A DNA stretch of 5,647 nucleotides from Anaerolineae bacterium (GTDB taxonomy: Bacteria > Chloroflexota > Anaerolineae > B4-G1). Below, one piece after another: positions 1 to 5,647 of this stretch (position 1 is the stretch's first letter; every line of letters begins with the position of its first letter). Position numbers and translations under genes: made by a program. The notes beneath the pieces were generated by a model that saw only the letters and a list, made by a program, of their open reading frames with translations, searched no databases and had not been told where the DNA came from. Location of the stretch: NCBI GenBank assembly GCA_030612185.1, contig JAUWOI010000321.1:1-5647 (forward strand), in the 5' to 3' direction.

Positions 1-78
1 TACGAGGGTTACGGTTGTGATGAAGCGGCGGAGGCTGTGAGACGTCAAACGTCAAACGTGGAACGTCAGCGCCGGTAG
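1..78 (+). CDS. 3' end of an upstream gene, possibly RsbS-like STAS protein (partial)
   Basis: Reading from base 1 gives an open frame, YEGYGCDEAAEAVRR then QTSNVERQRR, ending at TAG 76-78. The DEAAEAV part could be the final helix of a STAS protein such as RsbS, which normally sits directly upstream of rsbT. That is argued mainly from gene order, because too little protein is visible for a family call. The last ten or so residues are encoded by a heptamer repeat (42-69) and look like a tail added by it. A competing frame (T R V T V V M K R R R L) ends at TGA 38-40 and overlaps a GTG at 37; it looks less like a STAS end, but I cannot exclude it. Confidence 0.3.
   Translation, partial: YEGYGCDEAAEAVRRQTSNVERQRR
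42..69. repeat. Heptamer tandem repeat, four copies of acgtcaa-type unit
   Basis: Four consecutive 7-bp units: acgtcaa, acgtcaa, acgtgga, acgtcag. The array lies across the junction between the upstream gene and rsbT, where the rsbT start and ribosome binding site would be expected. Seven is not a multiple of three, so any change in copy number shifts the reading frame. The same period occurs in a different array inside kinase 1 (2580-2628). Confidence 0.8.
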
Positions 79-86
79 TTGTCCCG

Positions 87-473
87 GTGACCGAGGAATA
101 TCACATCGCGCAGGCACGGCGGGCGGCCGTGGCGCTGACCGAGGCGGTCGGCTTCGGCCAGACAAGGACCTCGTACGTGGCCACTGCCGTCTCGGAACTG
201 GCCAACAACCTCTTCTTCCACGCCAGCCGGGGTGGCACGATCACTCTCACCCCCCTCAAGCGGGAAGGGGAGATCGGTATCGAGGTCGTCGCCGAGGACG
301 ATGGCCCCGGCGTCCCAGACGTGGAACAGGCAATGCAGGACGGCTTCAGCACCAGCGGCGGACTGGGTGGCGGCCTGCCCGGTGTGAAACGGCTGATGGA
401 TGAATTCGAGATCACGTCTACGGTGGGCGTTGGGACGCGAATTGTGGCCAGGAAGTGGCAGCCATGCAAGTAG
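87..473 (+). CDS. rsbT: RsbT: stressosome serine/threonine kinase (GHKL fold switch protein)
   Basis: 128-residue protein very close to Bacillus RsbT in length and motifs. RsbT is a cytoplasmic GHKL ATPase that phosphorylates the STAS proteins RsbS and RsbR in the stressosome, is thereby released, and binds the N-terminal domain of RsbU to activate it. Visible here: ATP-binding N-box around SELANN (E37, N40, N41), the AEDDGPG motif with D71 (residues 69-75), and the hallmark segment DGFSTSGGLGGGLPG followed by KRLMDEF (85-107), almost unchanged from Bacillus. The start is uncertain. GTG 87 is the only in-frame ATG/GTG/TTG after the TGA at 21-23, and it has no good Shine-Dalgarno. The in-frame bases before it would encode APVVVPV, which resembles the first strand of RsbT homologues, so the natural N-terminus may have been disturbed by the repeat at 42-69. 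Overlaps the next gene by 10 bp, so the two are probably translationally coupled. Confidence 0.92.
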   Translation: MTEEYHIAQARRAAVALTEAVGFGQTRTSYVATAVSELANNLFFHASRGGTITLTPLKREGEIGIEVVAEDDGPGVPDVEQAMQDGFSTSGGLGGGLPGVKRLMDEFEITSTVGVGTRIVARKWQPCK

Positions 474-1048
474 CAATCACGAAACGGGCTTTTCTCGGTG
501 AAACACATTGCGGCGATGAGTGCGCCTATTGGCAAGAAGGCGGCAAGGCTACGCTCTGCATCGTGGATGGGTTGGGCCACGGGGAGGACGCGGAGCGGGC
601 GGCTCAGGCAGCAGTGGAGTACGTCGCCCTCCACCTGGCGGAACCGCTGGTGGACGTCTTTGCCGGCTGCGACCTGGCGCTGCGCCGCACGCGGGGCGTG
701 GCCATGGGCATCGGTGTCATTGACGAGGACGCGGGGACGCTAACCTACGCCGGGATCGGCAACACGCGCGCCGTGATTGTACAGAGTGCGCGTTCCCTGG
801 TCTGTCTGTCCAGCAACTATGGCATCGTGGGCGGCGGCTACCGGAAACTGACGTCCGAGACCGTGGAACTGCATCCGGGCGACCTGGTGATCCTGGTCAG
901 CGATGGCATCAAAGAGCGCTGTGACCTATTGGCCTACGGAGACGCGCTGCGTGGGGACGTGCAGCGGTTGGCGGAGAGGATTCTGCGCGACTGGGGCCGC
1001 GAGACGGACGACGCGGCGGTGCTGGTGTTCAGAAACGAGGTAATGTGA
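464..1048 (+). CDS. rsbX: RsbX-like PP2C-type serine phosphatase (stressosome reset)
   Basis: 194 residues, close to the roughly 199 of Bacillus RsbX, and a minimal PP2C/SpoIIE-type phosphatase with no sensor domain. RsbX dephosphorylates RsbS and RsbR so that RsbT is recaptured and signalling stops. Metal-binding motifs in order: CGD (D18), VDGLGHG (D35, G36), the RRTRGVAMGIGV strand (74-85), AGIGNTR (96-102), GDLVILVSDGI (D147) and the terminal DDAAVLV (D182, D183). ATG 464 is chosen over the in-frame GTG 455 because AGGAAG at 450-455 lies 8 bases upstream of it. It begins inside the end of rsbT, and its TGA (1046-1048) overlaps the ATG of a decayed kinase start. The order rsbT-rsbX is the usual stressosome arrangement. 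A SpoIIE-type phosphatase with another STAS substrate is the alternative, but the tiny size and position favour RsbX. Confidence 0.87.
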   Translation: MQVAITKRAFLGETHCGDECAYWQEGGKATLCIVDGLGHGEDAERAAQAAVEYVALHLAEPLVDVFAGCDLALRRTRGVAMGIGVIDEDAGTLTYAGIGNTRAVIVQSARSLVCLSSNYGIVGGGYRKLTSETVELHPGDLVILVSDGIKERCDLLAYGDALRGDVQRLAERILRDWGRETDDAAVLVFRNEVM

Positions 1049-1107
1049 TGATGGAGCAGACGATTCAGAATAGATGATTCAGGCTGCTTGAAGGCTATGT
1101 AGAGGAG
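1048..1107 (+). pseudogene. Remnant start of an RsbU_N-type histidine kinase gene
   Basis: From ATG 1048, which overlaps the rsbX stop, the codons read MMEQTIQNR, stop, FRLLEGYVEE. This aligns without gaps to the start of kinase 2 (MAERFTKNEYFRLLKAYV from 3057). E3, N8, F11, R12, L13, L14, Y17 and V18 agree, with TGA (1075-1077) standing where kinase 2 has Y10. The 11 bases ttcaggctgct (1078-1088) are identical to 3087-3097. Similarity ends near 1107, just before the DUF4258 gene. It is therefore probably the first 20 codons of a lost third kinase, cut off when the toxin-antitoxin cassette arrived. The match is short, but its position directly after rsbX, where such a gene is expected, supports it. 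Confidence 0.62.
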
Positions 1108-1121
1108 ATATTTGCATCGTG

Positions 1122-1430
1122 ATGAAAACTTTGGCACAGATTCGCAGACAGATATCTTTGGGGCAGTTTGAATTTAGCCGCCACGCCTTTAGACGCGCGG
1201 TTGAACGCAATATCAGTGAGTTAGAGATAAGTCAGGCTGGCAAGAAGGCTGAGATTATCGAGGATTACCCTGCCGACAAATATGGTCCTAGTTGCTTGCT
1301 GCTCGGCTTTACAGCAAACAATCGCCCTCTACATTTGCAGGTCTCGTATCTCGATACACTATTGGTAAAAATCATCACTCTATATGAACCAGATGAACAA
1401 GAGTGGTACAACTATACCCAACGGAGGTAA
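1122..1430 (+). CDS. DUF4258 family protein, probable toxin of a toxin-antitoxin pair
   Basis: 102 residues from ATG 1122, or 103 from the adjacent GTG 1119. GAGGAG at 1102-1107 is the only Shine-Dalgarno candidate and is slightly far from both, nearer to GTG 1119. The pattern fits DUF4258: an amphipathic start, SRHAFRRAVERNIS with H21 and R24/R25/R29, then IIEDYP (45-50), a central strand ending in RPLHLQV (H71), and the closing ITLYEPDEQEWY (85-96). DUF4258 proteins are often encoded beside small YgiT-type zinc-finger proteins, as here, and are regarded as probable RNase-type toxins; the activity is inference. Base composition is clearly more AT-rich than rsbX and the kinases, suggesting separate origin. 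The downstream antitoxin gene starts 2 bases after its TAA, so the two form one operon. Confidence 0.8.
   Translation: MKTLAQIRRQISLGQFEFSRHAFRRAVERNISELEISQAGKKAEIIEDYPADKYGPSCLLLGFTANNRPLHLQVSYLDTLLVKIITLYEPDEQEWYNYTQRR
1423..1427 (+). promoter_or_regulatory. Shine-Dalgarno for the antitoxin gene, inside the toxin gene's end
   Basis: GGAGG lies five bases before ATG 1433 and is formed by the last two sense codons (CGG AGG) of the DUF4258 gene. It settles the antitoxin start at 1433 rather than the in-frame GTG 1403. Ribosomes finishing the toxin would lie on this site, so translation of the two genes is probably coupled. Confidence 0.75.
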
Positions 1431-1432
1431 AA

Positions 1433-1663
1433 ATGTTTCAATGCCACATTTGCGGTGGTACAAAAGCCCGCGAAACGTTGGTGAAAGAGGTTTTCCAAAT
1501 TGGCGACAAGTGGGTTTTAGTGGAAAACATTCCAGCCAAAGTTTGCTCACGTTGTGGTGAGCCTACCTTTAGTCGCCAAGTTACTGAAGAAATCCGGCAG
1601 ATGGTACACGGTGAGACCCACCCGGTTAGGTCCGTCACCGTGGATGTATTCGCTTTTGCCTGA
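1433..1663 (+). CDS. YgiT/MqsA-type zinc-finger protein, probable antitoxin
   Basis: 76 residues. Two CxxC pairs, C4-H-I-C7 and C38-S-R-C41, form the zinc-binding site typical of YgiT-type (MqsA N-terminal) domains. Between them is a short beta region (VFQIGDKWVLVENIPAKV), and a conserved-looking tail VRSVTVDVFAFA closes the protein. It has no room for the C-terminal helix-turn-helix of full MqsA, so it would bind its partner but may not repress DNA on its own. Pairing with the upstream DUF4258 gene (2-bp gap) supports an antitoxin role, which is inferred from family and context. The AT-richer composition matches its partner. A longer frame reading from here toward the kinase exists only in another phase and is not this gene. 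Confidence 0.83.
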   Translation: MFQCHICGGTKARETLVKEVFQIGDKWVLVENIPAKVCSRCGEPTFSRQVTEEIRQMVHGETHPVRSVTVDVFAFA

Positions 1664-1710
1664 TAACCCTTGTTCGGGAATGGGAGCCAGGTGGAGCGCG
1701 TCCTCCATGG

Positions 1711-1770
1711 CTAGGTCGCGAGATGGACGATGCGGCGGTGCTGGTGCTCATAAGCGAGGTCATGCAGTGA
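1711..1770 (+). pseudogene. Remnant 3' end of a second rsbX-like PP2C gene
   Basis: The frame ending at TGA 1768-1770 reads LGREMDDAAVLVLISEVMQ. It matches the C-terminus of the RsbX-like protein (GRETDDAAVLVFRNEVM) at 13 of 17 residues from G to M, and gcggcggtgctggtg (1732-1746) is identical to 1013-1027. The match includes the DD metal-binding motif. Upstream of about 1700 the frame (WEPGGARPPW) no longer resembles a phosphatase, and no start or catalytic N-terminus exists. It is followed by kinase 1, whose GTG overlaps its TGA exactly as the decayed kinase start overlaps the intact rsbX. It is probably what is left of a duplicated PP2C gene. Confidence 0.7.
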
Positions 1771-2843
1771 CGGAACAATCTGTCAAAAATAAATACTCCG
1801 ATCTGCTCGCGGCCTACGTCACCGGACCGGAGGAATCGTACCTGCTCGAGGCCGCCGACCTGGGCCGCGAGTTGGTGTTGGCCGACGTCCCGCCCGAGGA
1901 TATCGCCGAGATACACGAGGAGGCGCTGGGACGGTTGGCACGGGAGCACCCGGACATAACCTTGCTGGACACAGGCCGGCTCATCTCGGCTCCGCTGATG
2001 GAACTGCTGATGGCGTATGGCCTGGCCTTCCGCGCACGGGAGAAGGCGCTGAAGCAGTATTCTGAGCATCTGGAAGAGATGGTAGAGGAGCGCACCAGAG
2101 AGCTTCGAGCGGTGCAGGAGCGGTTGGTTCGCCGGGAGAAACTCGCCGTCCTCGGCCAACTGGCCGGCGGGGTGGCCCACGAGCTGCGCAATCCTCTGGG
2201 CGTGATCTCCAACGCCATCTATTTCCTCCAGATGACCCTCTCCGACGCCAGCGAGACCACCAGGGAATACCTGGACATCGTCTCCTCAGAGGTCCGCGGT
2301 GCGGAGAAAATCGTCTCCGACCTCCTAAACCTCTCGCGCACCAGGGCAGCCGAAAAGGAGAAAATAGCCGTCTCCGCTCTGGTTTCCCAGATGTTGGAGA
2401 AGCGACCTCCGCCCGAGGATGTGGAGGTGACCACCCAGATACCCTCGGACCTGCCCCCCGTGTTCGTAGACCCCCGGCAGATGGGGCAGGTGCTGGGCAA
2501 TCTGGCCACCAACGCGTACCAGGCCATGCCGGAAGGCGGTCGCCTGACTATCGCCGCCACGGTGTCCAGTGATCAATTTCCAATCTCCAACCTCCAATCT
2601 CCAATCCCTAATCTCCAATCTCTAATCTCTATCTTCATCACCATCACCGATACCGGCTGCGGCATCCCTGAGGAGAACCTGGAGAAGATCTTCGAGCCAC
2701 TCTTCACCACCAGGGCGAAGGGCATCGGGTTGGGGCTGGCAGTCTCCAGGAGCCTGGTGGAGACTAACGGGGGCAGCATTGAGGTACAAAGTGAGGAAGG
2801 GCAGGGGAGCACCTTCACGGTCAGGTTGCCTCTCGCCGACTAG
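1767..2843 (+). CDS. Histidine kinase 1: RsbU_N (RsbT-binding) domain fused to HisKA-HATPase
   Basis: 358 residues from GTG 1767, with GCGAGG upstream at 1754-1759; an in-frame ATG at 1554 would add a nonsense extension across the antitoxin gene. Residues 8-90 match the RsbU N-terminal domain of Bacillus, the helical domain that binds RsbT: YSDLLAAYV, then LVLADVPPEDIAEIHEEAL, then LMELLMAYGLAF. A coiled coil (91-125) leads to the dimerisation H-box GGVAHELRNPLG (H138). The ATPase domain has the N-box NLATN (N245, N249), DTGCG (295-299), the F-box FEPLFTT and GIGLGL (319-324). There is no membrane segment, PAS or receiver, so it is probably a cytoplasmic kinase whose only sensor is the RsbT-binding domain. 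About 17 residues (QFPISNLQSPIPNLQSLIS) before the last strand leading to DTGCG come from a heptamer array and are absent from typical kinases. The fold probably tolerates them as a loop. Confidence 0.9.
   Translation: MTEQSVKNKYSDLLAAYVTGPEESYLLEAADLGRELVLADVPPEDIAEIHEEALGRLAREHPDITLLDTGRLISAPLMELLMAYGLAFRAREKALKQYSEHLEEMVEERTRELRAVQERLVRREKLAVLGQLAGGVAHELRNPLGVISNAIYFLQMTLSDASETTREYLDIVSSEVRGAEKIVSDLLNLSRTRAAEKEKIAVSALVSQMLEKRPPPEDVEVTTQIPSDLPPVFVDPRQMGQVLGNLATNAYQAMPEGGRLTIAATVSSDQFPISNLQSPIPNLQSLISIFITITDTGCGIPEENLEKIFEPLFTTRAKGIGLGLAVSRSLVETNGGSIEVQSEEGQGSTFTVRLPLAD
2580..2628. repeat. Heptamer tandem array (7 units) inside the ATPase domain of kinase 1
   Basis: Seven consecutive 7-bp units: ccaatct, ccaacct, ccaatct, ccaatcc, ctaatct, ccaatct, ctaatct. 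Read in the kinase frame they give alternating NLQS/IPNLQS-like peptides. Such short tandemly repeated heptamers are known from cyanobacterial genomes, and I recall similar ccaatct arrays from Chloroflexi, which I could not check. Location inside a conserved catalytic domain is unusual. Confidence 0.85.
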
Positions 2844-2964
2844 CAGTTTGTCGGAGAGGCGTTCCGGAATCCAGGCTTCAGCCGGTTTTGTCGGAAATTG
2901 ACGCCTTTTATCCGGCTAAAGCCTCGACTCCAGTCCCTCGGGGTGTCTCTCCGACAGACTGCTA
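2841..2964. mobile_element. MITE-like palindromic element with TA flanks
   Basis: The ends are inverted repeats: gcagtttgtcggagag (2843-2858) and ctctccgacagactgc (2947-2962), matching 15 of 16. Both are flanked by TA (2841-2842 and 2963-2964), the target duplication made by IS630/Tc1-mariner transposases. A second inverted pair, aggcttcagccgg (2873-2885) and ccggctaaagcct (2912-2924), matches 12 of 13, so the whole element can fold into one long hairpin. It encodes nothing. It lies exactly at the kinase 1 stop: the TAG is made of the left TA plus the element's first G, and the uninterrupted site would also have read TAG, so the protein end is unchanged. The hairpin may reduce transcription from kinase 1 into kinase 2. 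It would have to be mobilised in trans, since no transposase is present. Confidence 0.72.
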
Positions 2965-2965
2965 G

Positions 2966-3056
2966 GTGGGAAGGCGGCCTCCCCGATGCTGATCTCCTGC
3001 TGGAAGCGATTGGACGACAGTGCGAGAGGCAAAAGAGGTGATGGAGAGGGGGCATG
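2966..3056. other. Intergenic segment before kinase 2
   Basis: About 90 bases between the MITE-like element and kinase 2. I see no gene. Two short open frames cross it, one ending at TGA 3055-3057 that overlaps the kinase 2 ATG; neither resembles a known family, although a weak LDDSA string recalls the DD motif of the PP2C tail. A purine-rich GGAGAGGGGG (3043-3052) serves as the ribosome binding site of kinase 2. Confidence 0.5.
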
Positions 3057-5647
3057 ATGGCGGAACGATTTACCAAGAATGAATACTTCAGGCTGCTCAA
3101 GGCCTACGTTGCCAGCCCGGAGGAAAAATATCTGGCAGCGGCGGCGGATTGGGGCCGTGAACTGGTACTGGCCGACGTCCCGCCCGAGGATATCGCTGAG
3201 ATACACGAGCAGGCGTTGGAACGGCTGGCGCGGGAGCGGCCGGACATGACCCTGCTGGACGCCGCCCGGCGTATCTCGTCGCCGTTGATGGAGTTGCTCA
3301 TGGCGTATGGCCTGGCCTTCCGCGAGCGGCTGGAAACCCGCAGGCGGGCGGAGGAGGCGCTGCGGGAGAGCGAGGAACGATTAAGTGCTTTCATGGACTC
3401 GGCGCCCGACAGTTTCATTCTTTTCGATTCAGAACTGAACATTGTTGACATCAATGATGCTGCATTAGAATATCATCCAACTGGGACCAAGAAAGAGGAC
3501 CTAATAGGAAAGAACATCCTGGACGTCATGCCCGGTCTTGAGGAGACGGGTAGATATGACAGTTATCTGGAAGTCATAAAGACCGGAAAGCCGTTCTACG
3601 TTGAAGACGTTGTTCCTCATCCCAAGTTTGGGGATAGGCGCTTGACTGTGAGGGCTTTCAAAGTAGATGAGGGCCTTGGGCTTATTGTCACAGACATCAC
3701 CGAGCGTAAACGGACGGAGGAGGCGGTGCGGAGGAGCGAGCAACGGTACCGCAGTCTGTTCGAGGGCCTACCCGTGGGACTCTACCGTATGACACCGCAA
3801 GGGCTCATCCTCCACGCCAACCCTGCCCTGGTACAGATGCTGGGCTATCCAGACCGGCGGGCGCTGATGGCGGTCAACGCACTTGATCTGTACGTGGACG
3901 CCGAGGATTACGAGCGCCAGCAAGCACTGCTGGAGCGGGAAGGGCTCGCGCGTGATCTCGAAATGCGGTTTCGCCGGTATGATGGCACGGTCATCTGGGT
4001 ACGGAATACGGTGCAGGCCGTCCGTAGTGACAGGAGAGATGTGTTCTATTACGAAGGCAGCATGGAGGACATCACCGAGCGCAAGCGGGCGGAGCGCGAA
4101 ATCGAGGAGCGCCGGTCGTACCTGGAGAGCGTGTTGGCCTGTGCCCCCGACGCCGTCGTCACCCTGGACGCCCGACACAATATCCTGGAGTGGAACTTGG
4201 GGGCGGAGAGGCTGTTTGGATATACCCGGCAGGAGGTGGTCGGGCGGAACATTGATGACCTGATCACCGGGCCTGACGCCAACGTGTTCGAGGAAGCGAC
4301 CGGTTTGACCCGGCAAATCCTGGCCGGGGGGAATCTCCCGCTGACCGAGATGGTCCGTTACCGGAAGGACGGCTCCCCGGTGGACGTCATCGGGGCCGGC
4401 TCTCCGATCTTGATTGTGGGTGAAGTGATCGGGATGGTGGCCATCTACACCGACATCACCGAGCGCAAGCGCGTGGAGAAGCAACTGCGGCAGCAAGAGC
4501 GGCTGGCCGCCGTGGGCCAACTGGCGGCCGGCATCGCCCACGATTTTAACAACACCATGGCCTCGATCATCCTATATGCCCAGATGATGTTGCGGACGTC
4601 GGACCTGTCCTCCCGCGACCGCGAGCGACTGATCACGATCAACCATGAGGCCCGGCACGCGGCCGACCTGACCCAGCAGATCCTGGACTTCAGCCGGCGC
4701 TCGGTGCTCGAACGGCGGCCACTGGACCTGCTCCCGTTTCTGAAGGAACTGGCAAAACTGCTGGAACCTACGCTGCCGGAGAACATCAAGATCGTCCTGG
4801 CGTACGGGCCGGACGAGTACACGGTGAACGCCGATCCGACGCGTGTACAGCAGGCGATGATAAACCTGGCGCTGAACGCGCGGGACGCGATGCCGGAAGG
4901 TGGGGAACTGCGTATCGGATTGGAGCGGATACGGATCAAGGATGGTCAGGAAGCGCCACTGCCCGAAATGGAGGCTGGGGAATGGGTACAGGTGACGGTA
5001 GCGGACACCGGGACAGGCATTCCACCCGACGTGCTGCCGCACATGTTTGAGCCGTTCTTCACCACCAAGCCGGTTGGCCAGGGGACGGGGTTGGGGCTGG
5101 CGCAGGTGTACGGCATTGTCAAGCAACATGGGGGCGAGATTGACGTGGAGAGTGAGTTGGGGCATGGGGCGACCTTCGTCATATACCTGCCCGCTCTGCC
5201 GGTGTCTGCGCCGGAGGCACTGCCGCGCGAAATGCCGGCACCGGCAGAAGGACATGGAGAGACCATCTTGGTCGTAGAGGACAACCCCGGCGCCCGGGAA
5301 GCGTTGAGCGATGCGCTTGAGATGCTAAACTACCGGGTGCTGGCGGCGGCGAACGGGCAGGAAGCGCTGCAGATCTACCGGTCGGCGGAGGGGGACTGTT
5401 CTGCCACCGCGAGTACCACCGCGAGTACCACCGCGAGTACCACCGCGAGTACCACCGCGAGTACCACCGCGAGTACCACCGCGAGTACTCGTGGCGGGGC
5501 TCGTGGCGGGGCTCCACTGCGAGAGTACTCGCGGGGCCGGCGGGGCGGTGCGCGCAGTCGAAGGGCCCGGCCTGCCACCGCGAGTACTCGTGGCGGTGAG
5601 CGCAGTCGAAGGATAGACTTGGTGCTCACGGACGTAGTGATGCCGGG
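3057..5647 (+). CDS. Hybrid histidine kinase 2: RsbU_N + 3 PAS + HisKA-HATPase + receiver (3' partial)
   Basis: Open from ATG 3057 (or 3054) to the window end, about 863 residues so far. ATG 3057 is preferred because it aligns without gaps to the kinase 1 start and stands 4 bases after GGAGAGGGGG. Domains: RsbU_N RsbT-binding domain 8-88; PAS1 about 109-215; PAS2 229-345; PAS3 352-472, each closing with the DITERKR motif; H-box GIAHDFNN (H495); N-box NLALNARDA (N603, N607, D610); DTGTG (650-654); GTGLGL (676-681); a linker rich in A, P and E; then a receiver with acidic pair E741/D742 and phospho-acceptor D859 in LVLTDVVMPG. No membrane segment is seen. The acidic pair and acceptor are 117 residues apart against about 44 in CheY. 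The excess is a repeat insertion (5394-5615, TAST repeats then Arg/Gly-rich) in the loop before strand 3. PAS1 is AT-richer than the rest. The RsbU_N region is nearly identical in DNA to that of kinase 1, so one was copied from the other. Confidence 0.88.
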   Translation, partial: MAERFTKNEYFRLLKAYVASPEEKYLAAAADWGRELVLADVPPEDIAEIHEQALERLARERPDMTLLDAARRISSPLMELLMAYGLAFRERLETRRRAEEALRESEERLSAFMDSAPDSFILFDSELNIVDINDAALEYHPTGTKKEDLIGKNILDVMPGLEETGRYDSYLEVIKTGKPFYVEDVVPHPKFGDRRLTVRAFKVDEGLGLIVTDITERKRTEEAVRRSEQRYRSLFEGLPVGLYRMTPQGLILHANPALVQMLGYPDRRALMAVNALDLYVDAEDYERQQALLEREGLARDLEMRFRRYDGTVIWVRNTVQAVRSDRRDVFYYEGSMEDITERKRAEREIEERRSYLESVLACAPDAVVTLDARHNILEWNLGAERLFGYTRQEVVGRNIDDLITGPDANVFEEATGLTRQILAGGNLPLTEMVRYRKDGSPVDVIGAGSPILIVGEVIGMVAIYTDITERKRVEKQLRQQERLAAVGQLAAGIAHDFNNTMASIILYAQMMLRTSDLSSRDRERLITINHEARHAADLTQQILDFSRRSVLERRPLDLLPFLKELAKLLEPTLPENIKIVLAYGPDEYTVNADPTRVQQAMINLALNARDAMPEGGELRIGLERIRIKDGQEAPLPEMEAGEWVQVTVADTGTGIPPDVLPHMFEPFFTTKPVGQGTGLGLAQVYGIVKQHGGEIDVESELGHGATFVIYLPALPVSAPEALPREMPAPAEGHGETILVVEDNPGAREALSDALEMLNYRVLAAANGQEALQIYRSAEGDCSATASTTASTTASTTASTTASTTASTTASTRGGARGGAPLREYSRGRRGGARSRRARPATASTRGGERSRRIDLVLTDVVMP
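5403..5486. repeat. 12-bp tandem repeat, seven copies, inside the receiver coding region
   Basis: Seven perfect 12-bp units of accaccgcgagt (the first begins with g instead of a). Twelve is a multiple of three, so each unit encodes T-T-A-S and copy-number change would lengthen or shorten the protein without breaking the frame. The array leads directly into an inverted counterpart (tcgtggcggggc twice, 5489-5512) centred on the palindrome gagtactc (5483-5490), so the strand can fold back on itself. Confidence 0.92.
5487..5612. repeat. REP-like palindromic repeat block inside the receiver coding region
   Basis: Contains three gagtactc-centred palindromes together with the preceding array: at 5483-5490, near 5523-5530, and in ccaccgcgagtactcgtggc at 5576-5595. 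An 18-base direct repeat, ggtgcgcgcagtcgaagg (5547-5564) and ggtgagcgcagtcgaagg (5595-5612), differs at one base. The 16 bases ctgccaccgcgagtac occur at both 5401-5416 and 5572-5587. GAGCGCAGTCGAAGG-type motifs resemble dispersed REP-like repeats known from many genomes. The coding frame passes through as Arg/Gly/Ala-rich residues and ends at the start of strand 3 of the receiver. Confidence 0.8.

Follow-up and report, generated by a model that had tools for sequence, protein, structure and literature searches.

A candidate stressosome locus of an Anaerolineae bacterium with two RsbU_N histidine kinases and two RsbT-family ATPases

Which protein would switch on a histidine kinase that begins with the RsbT-binding domain of RsbU? 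The question is raised by a 5,647-nucleotide stretch of DNA from an Anaerolineae bacterium (GenBank assembly GCA_030612185.1, contig JAUWOI010000321.1, positions 1 to 5,647, forward strand), analyzed here in full and called the window, which encodes two such kinases. The initial annotation took the ATPase gene at 87-473 for rsbT and proposed that RsbT released from a stressosome binds and activates both kinases. We argue that this gene, here called T2, is most likely a diverged RsbT paralogue and not RsbT itself, and that the expected activator is most likely RsbT proper, T1, whose gene ends at position 40. On balance, we favor a reading in which the window is the downstream half of an rsbR-rsbS-T1-T2-rsbX operon whose T1-driven outputs are the two kinases carrying the RsbU_N domain. 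Open reading frames (ORFs), Pfam and NCBIfam define six clear genes in the window, all on the plus strand. The features with a putative role in signaling are:

2..40, stop at 38-40, plus strand: 3' end of T1, TRVTVVMKRRRL, RsbT orthologue, with the remainder upstream of the window
87..473, plus strand: T2, RsbT-family GHKL ATPase, 128 amino acids (HATPase_c_2, 51.9 bits, cut-off 27.4; Pfam)
464..1048, plus strand: RsbX-like PP2C/SpoIIE phosphatase, 194 amino acids (SpoIIE, 46.2 bits, cut-off 25; Pfam)
1767..2843, plus strand: kinase 1, 358 amino acids, RsbU_N, long helix, HisKA and HATPase_c (Pfam)
3054..5647, plus strand: kinase 2, RsbU_N, three PAS, HisKA, HATPase_c and receiver (Pfam)

The T2 and phosphatase genes overlap by 10 bases. 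The kinase 2 ORF is open at the window end, where its receiver is cut after 864 amino acids.

The RsbU_N histidine kinases

Pfam matched RsbU_N (PF08673, cut-off 25.5 bits) to residues 9-87 of kinase 1 (38.7 bits, E value 1.1e-9) and residues 10-88 of kinase 2 (42.1 bits, E value 9.9e-11). The initial annotation had read both N-termini in this way; the motifs it quoted are present, kinase 2 reading VPPEDIAEIHEQAL, and in both proteins HisKA and HATPase_c replace the PP2C output, as it had also described. When the kinase 1 N-terminus was searched against PDB sequences, only RsbU chains appeared at E < 0.001 (four rows, best 2j6z, 3.6e-6). The H, N, and G boxes are intact in kinase 1 (H138, NLATNA from 245, DTGCGIP from 295, GIGLGLA from 319) and in kinase 2 (H496, NLALNA from 604, DTGTGIP from 651, GTGLGLA from 677), with His138 and His496 as the predicted phospho-acceptors.

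An AlphaFold2 model of kinase 1 (mean predicted local distance difference test score, pLDDT, 88) contains an unbroken helix over residues 66-157 through which RsbU_N is predicted to join the kinase core; a linker mechanism would need such a connection. Compared with the PDB, the full-length model gave 50 listed matches, all kinase structures. Because these alignments covered only residues ~108-358, the N-domain was modeled by itself (pLDDT 92, four helices). RsbU chains 2j6z, 2j6y, and 2j70 filled the top four rows of a Foldseek search with this model (probability 0.96-0.98, E 0.17-0.36), and no match reached E < 0.001.

RsbU E24 belongs to the same interface as residue R19 of RsbT (PMC12143880; here and below, papers are cited for the portions of their text available to us). 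The equivalent residue is glutamate in both window kinases (E23 of kinase 1) and in 66 of 73 RsbU_N rows, a set that includes duplicates and leaves out the Listeria and Bacillus references; with 12 repeat loci omitted, the count is 53/58.

T1, T2 and the RsbX-like phosphatase

Read in frame 2, window bases 2-40 are the last 12 codons of an RsbT, TRVTVVMKRRRL and a stop, and resemble the T1 ends of relatives, for example TRVTVGMRKRRH in L001. Scored against 11 T1 C-termini, this end had a BLOSUM62 mean of 17.4, compared with a control mean of -10.4; 17.4 was attained by 9/4289 control ORF ends, among which are true T1 ends. Because the frame-2 start matches T1 ends, we place the end of T1 proper at position 40, with T2 next, as in relatives.

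The product of 87-473 is 57-70% identical to the T2 proteins of nine relatives and 33-48% identical to the T1 proteins of eleven. In a maximum-likelihood tree of ATPases that included Listeria and Bacillus RsbT and RsbW, the RsbT proteins of these two genera joined T1 and the single RsbT of L010 (support 99/97). The window protein fell outside this RsbT/T1 group and lay with free T2 genes, at a weak fork (85/77). It also departs from the RsbT motif DQxR/SELxRN, with R, T, Y, and N at residues 35, 36, 38, and 48. Among 39 T1 proteins, D35 is kept in 33, Q36 in 34, R38 in 27, and R48 in 37; the corresponding counts among 24 T2 proteins are 4, 1, 4, and 1. The ATP-site asparagine and aspartate of GHKL ATPases are present in the window protein and in 24/24 T2. 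Thus, the original assignment of 87-473 holds for the family, as the HATPase_c_2 match indicates, and the tree and motifs speak against RsbT itself. For all T1 and T2 residue counts, we dropped matches under 60 bits, rows lacking residue 19, nine repeat loci, the degenerate T1 of L012, and the kinase-fused T1-like domains of L019 and L020, and kept Listeria and Bacillus RsbT apart as references. The T2 model match begins near position 69, ahead of the GTG at 87, and the true T2 start may therefore lie upstream of 87.

The interface residues bear on which ATPase docks. RsbT R19 is a contact residue of the RsbU interface and D92 meets the RsbU linker (PMC12143880). R19 is kept in 39/39 T1 (40/40 with L077, a repeat locus whose twin gave no row) and 11/24 T2, and residue 23 is R or K in 38/39 and 11/24, respectively; the window T2 keeps R19 and has V at 23. 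D92, by comparison, is commoner in T2 (19/24) than in T1 (22/39), which points to T2. This count underlies a second reading, in which T2, alone or with T1, would be the ligand of both RsbU_N domains while T1 stays the stressosome kinase. The ATP-site residues kept in every T2, the R19 of the window T2, and its position as the ATPase gene closest to the kinases would also suit such a role. Nevertheless, we judge it unlikely. Many RsbU_N loci have T1 without T2 (L003, L006, L010, L032, L033, L048-L051, L064, and L070), and T1 can therefore do without T2. Furthermore, T2 tracks rsbX and not RsbU_N: in four of the loci that encode T2 and RsbX in a single frame (L019-L021 and L023) the fetched stretch lacks RsbU_N, and two (L042 and L043) have it. 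Finally, T2 proteins do not as a rule keep R19 and R23, and the V at 23 of the window T2 follows this pattern.

T2 adjoins rsbX in 25 of 26 distinct T2 loci, the window included, and shares one frame with it in six (L019, L020, L021, L023, L042, and L043). In all 24 loci whose sequence extends far enough upstream, T1 lies ahead of T2. At least 10 loci have RsbX and no T2 (L003, L006, L010, L032-L034, L048, L051, L064, and L070). The split into T1 and T2 poses a new question, namely why RsbX would need its own RsbT-like ATPase. The phosphatase itself was recognized correctly in the initial annotation: it is a single-domain SpoIIE protein whose best PDB match is 3zt9 (E 2.3e-21), a chain that we take to be of Moorella origin, with RsbX 3w40 also matched (E 4.9e-9). 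The single-frame gene of L019, on a Paraburkholderia plasmid, is annotated in PLSDB as 'ATP-binding SpoIIE family protein phosphatase'. It resembles the window in combining a T2-like ATPase with an RsbX-like phosphatase, but in the window these are separate, overlapping genes. In the tree, the ATPase parts of the fused phosphatases of Deinococcus, Paraburkholderia, and Halobaculum lie outside the group of free T2 genes; as the two form no joint clade, we set aside the idea that they share an origin.

A further possibility, which we regard as tentative, is that RsbT was duplicated and took on two jobs, T1 as stressosome kinase and activator and T2 as an ATPase subunit or fused domain that targets and gates RsbX, with joint docking on RsbU_N and two outputs. 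If so, one stressosome in operons with T1 and T2 would drive two differing outputs, here two kinases and elsewhere either a diguanylate cyclase paired with an HD-GYP protein or a cyclic di-GMP (c-di-GMP) enzyme paired with a hybrid kinase. T1 keeps D92 in 10/23 loci with T2 and 12/16 without (Fisher p 0.10, kinship ignored), and the comparison for D or E at residue 92 gave p 0.04, again ignoring kinship. We did not rely on this test of subfunction, with its p of 0.10 uncorrected for kinship and with L028 misgrouped: this locus was counted as lacking T2 for the sole reason that its T2 scored under 60 bits.

Other rearrangements of RsbT-like domains were seen among the relatives. In a Spirochaetales locus (L012:3896-4864), one 322-residue frame ahead of T2 holds two T1-like copies with a degenerate piece between them, a further RsbT duplication. 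In L019 (7369-7750), the Paraburkholderia plasmid, and in L020 (7414-7783), a Deinococcus plasmid, downstream kinase-like genes carry at their start, in place of RsbU_N, an ATPase domain like that of RsbT (T1 model, 91 and 117 bits); from their sequences, these kinases look as if RsbT had been fused to its own output.

Operon order in relatives and history of the locus

When proteins were searched with the RsbU_N region of kinase 1, 42 matched; a precomputed RsbU_N domain is present in 40, joined to HisKA, HisKA_2/HWE, or HisKA_3 kinases, HD-GYP, LuxR-type (GerE), PAS, GAF, and receiver domains. A contig scan with an alignment of 15 RsbU_N domains yielded 17 loci from bacteria (Planctomycetes, Poribacteria, Dehalococcoidia, Anaerolineales, Nitrospiraceae, Spirochaetales, Desulfobacterales, and others) and archaea (two Methanosarcina and one Methanophagales). 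The 16 genomes behind these loci carry RsbU_N once (14 genomes) or twice (2 genomes). On hidden Markov model maps the recurring order was rsbR, rsbS, T1, sometimes T2, rsbX, and then the RsbU_N gene. With L004, L007, and L011 cut upstream by the contig edge, T1 was found in 12 of the 17 loci, T2 in 10, rsbX in 13 (one a fragment), and rsbR together with rsbS in 10, which places RsbU_N in an rsbR-rsbS-rsbT-rsbX operon in relatives and supports this part of the initial annotation. The rsbR product is RsbRD_N-STAS in L009 and PAS-STAS in L003, and in L005 and L024 the kinase is closely followed by a response regulator. Of the upstream part of such an operon, the window contains the end of T1; the stressosome module of the initial annotation is predicted from relatives, as are rsbR and rsbS, which are seen there and not in the window.

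Four loci of Halobacteriota archaea (L048-L051) have rsbR-rsbS-rsbT followed directly by an RsbU_N histidine kinase in the rsbU slot, and, as far as the flanks reach, rsbX follows the kinase in two of them; archaeal stressosomes as such have been published before (PMC10014275). A plasmid record named Stenotrophomonas rhizophila (L022, CP031730.1) contains a Bacillus-type rsbT-rsbU-rsbV-rsbW-sigB operon and is perhaps mislabeled or contaminated.

A census of 1559 genomes from six phyla, named after the seed loci and covered with flanks of only ~1.5 kb, found RsbU_N over the cut-off in 44, including 7 seed genomes: 11/400 in Chloroflexota, 5/297 in Desulfobacterota, 15/246 in Halobacteriota, 3/199 in Planctomycetota, 9/349 in Pseudomonadota, and 1/68 in Nitrospirota. 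T1 lies beside RsbU_N in 28 of the 44 (23/37 without seed genomes), half of them with T2 (14) and half without (14); any stressosome gene lies near RsbU_N in 32. These counts omit five sub-cut-off places (L038, L045, L047, L075, and L080), of which L047 shows T1, so that G597 would lift the T1 count to 29/44. In G1237, T2 was called from a match that is weak and partial (46 bits), and G727, which had no model match, was counted as having none. The 67 RsbU_N ORF rows, among which some genes appear twice and many ORFs are truncated at the end of the locus, comprise 31 with a histidine-kinase ATPase, 11 with HD-GYP, 5 with GGDEF, and 20 with none of these. A PP2C domain was found in 0/67 with a model that detects Listeria and Bacillus RsbU and was partly built from them.

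Two consecutive RsbU_N genes occur in 5/44 genomes (G009, G1229, G1237, G1293, and G1309), and in each the pair includes one or more c-di-GMP enzymes. Among the fetched loci, only the window has a kinase-kinase pair; P0007 and P0024, both hybrid RsbU_N kinases from contigs of equal length, are perhaps a second. In Anaerolineales (L009:10001-13123, the same as L029/L036), an RsbU_N diguanylate cyclase (PAS-GGDEF) is followed by an RsbU_N GAF-HD-GYP protein; these are c-di-GMP enzymes of opposite sense, and both are presumably under one RsbT. In Pseudomonadota (L066/L076, L067/L078, L068/L077, and L071/L079), RsbU_N-HD-GYP or RsbU_N-GGDEF precedes an RsbU_N hybrid kinase, a recurring branched output; in L067 the kinase part is in a different frame from its RsbU_N.

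Three further features lie between the phosphatase and kinase 1 in the window:

1048..1104, plus strand: degenerate, non-working start of a third RsbU_N gene in the frame after rsbX, MMEQTIQNR-stop-FRLLEGYVEE (three-frame translation, local alignment)
1119..1430, plus strand: DUF4258 protein of an inserted toxin-antitoxin-like pair (PF14076, 77.1 bits)
1433..1663, plus strand: YgiT/MqsA-type zinc-finger protein, the DUF4258 partner (TIGR03831, 44.6 bits, cut-off 20.2)

The DUF4258-YgiT pair is outside the signaling set. The ORFs lie where the initial annotation placed them, but this pair (1119-1663) separates the phosphatase from kinase 1, and the operon is not compact. Positions 995-1100 and 1714-1819 form a 106-nt repeat (71%) that covers the rsbX end and the start of an RsbU_N gene. 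The two-kinase pair probably arose by tandem duplication of a unit made of the rsbX end and an RsbU_N kinase, and the simplest reading is that one copy was cut short by the DUF4258-YgiT insertion. Such an origin would explain the two-kinase wiring as duplication and not as a designed relay. Between the kinases (2840-2965) lies an element of ~125 bp that resembles a miniature inverted-repeat transposable element, its 19-bp inverted ends 95% complementary. An in-frame heptamer, CAATCTC, is repeated in 8 copies at 2574-2629 in the kinase 1 ATPase domain, near a low-confidence loop of the model (residues 272-279). The kinase 2 receiver contains an in-frame 12-bp tandem repeat, CCACCGCGAGTA, in ~7 copies at 5404-5514; the insert, by eye to ~5612, consists of this repeat and related sequence and lies ahead of the phospho-Asp stretch. 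The exact CCACCGCGAGTA unit was not found in the 81 fetched loci.

Several observations weigh against T1 as the driver of the two kinases, in addition to the D92 counts. Changing RsbU Y28 to I abolishes RsbT binding in B. subtilis, and control of linker flexibility by a partner differs from the usual histidine-kinase models (PMC12143880). At the Y28 position the window kinases have L and A, and tyrosine occurs in only 16/73 RsbU_N rows. Within the window, we saw neither rsbR and rsbS nor the main part of T1 or an RsbU-RsbV-RsbW set. Loci L015-L017 (3/17) show no stressosome gene, nor do the short flanks of RsbU_N in 12 of the 44 census genomes. Finally, with several insertions, the locus may be decaying.

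The flanks without a stressosome gene and the variable Y28 position would fit RsbU_N acting as a dimerization module only, in kinases that answer other signals, such as those of the PAS domains in kinase 2, and not RsbT; the B. subtilis RsbU_N domain is itself a dimer (PMC12143880). We find this distinctly unlikely. Kinase 1 has no other input domain recognized by Pfam, E24 is kept in most rows, and the operon link extends over several bacterial groups and archaea. That the locus is a decaying copy whose signaling no longer works is more improbable still. The toxin-antitoxin-like insertion, the truncated third RsbU_N start, the inverted-repeat element, and the in-frame repeat expansions in kinase 1 and the kinase 2 receiver would be expected of such a copy. 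However, the ORFs of both kinases, the ATPase, and the phosphatase are open, the kinase catalytic motifs are kept, and both repeats preserve the frame, the one in kinase 1 lying by a low-confidence loop.

A predicted route from stressosome to phosphorelay and its relation to known systems

In the T1-driven reading, T1, encoded just upstream, would be held on the RsbR-RsbS complex in the resting cell. Under stress, it would phosphorylate this complex and leave, and free T1 would then dock on the four-helix RsbU_N dimer of each kinase. Docking is predicted to stiffen the helix by which RsbU_N helix 4 continues into the first helix of the dimerization and phospho-acceptor domain, and the stiffened helix would switch autophosphorylation on. 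Kinase 1 would answer through RsbU_N, its one recognized input, and kinase 2 would add its PAS inputs and receiver. To reset the system, RsbX, aided by T2, would strip the phosphates from RsbR and RsbS. T1 binding, kinase activation, the reset role of T2, and a downstream response regulator are all predictions. If they are right, RsbU_N is a portable RsbT socket that turns the stressosome into a phosphorelay in bacteria and archaea, and one released RsbT can branch to two outputs. Kinase 1, a small and soluble histidine kinase with the socket as its only recognized input domain, offers a kinase on which the model of linker stiffening by RsbT can be tested directly.

RsbU_N has been described in some of the proteins whose genes follow rsbX, and the listed outputs include phosphorelays with HisKA and REC (PMC9237108). 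RsbU_N histidine kinases have also been named from the rsbT operons of some Proteobacteria, and one of them was modeled (PMC12143880). The core idea is therefore already known, and the earlier claim of an undescribed wiring applies to the two-kinase pair but not to RsbU_N kinases as outputs. Our searches of open-licence literature gave no description of this pair or of the tandem T1/T2 pair, a weak absence that does not extend to the Pane-Farre reviews of 2005/2017. A literature match to 'second rsbT' (PMC11418112) was discarded as, in the text available, a strain description only.

One close likeness is to the RSTX loci of Proteobacteria, where rsbX follows the RST genes and precedes signaling proteins, some with RsbU_N (Heinz et al. 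2022, PMC9237108); the available text describes one RsbT, whereas the window has a T1/T2 pair and two successive RsbU_N kinases. In Vibrio vulnificus, stressosome genes are likewise followed by a two-component system (RSTX-VvD1-VvD2; PMC10014275), but, unlike in the window, RsbU_N was not detected, and an interaction between VvRsbT and VvD1 was not obtained, according to the portion available (PMC9237108). MtG of Moorella thermoacetica (RsbU_N-GAF-GGDEF; Quin et al. 2012, as cited in PMC12143880) has RsbU_N on another effector, as here, with c-di-GMP as the output where the window has histidine kinases. In the B. subtilis RsbT-RsbU pair, RsbU_N leads through a long helix into the effector, as in the window, and the effector is PP2C in RsbU and HisKA-HATPase in the window kinases (PMC12143880).

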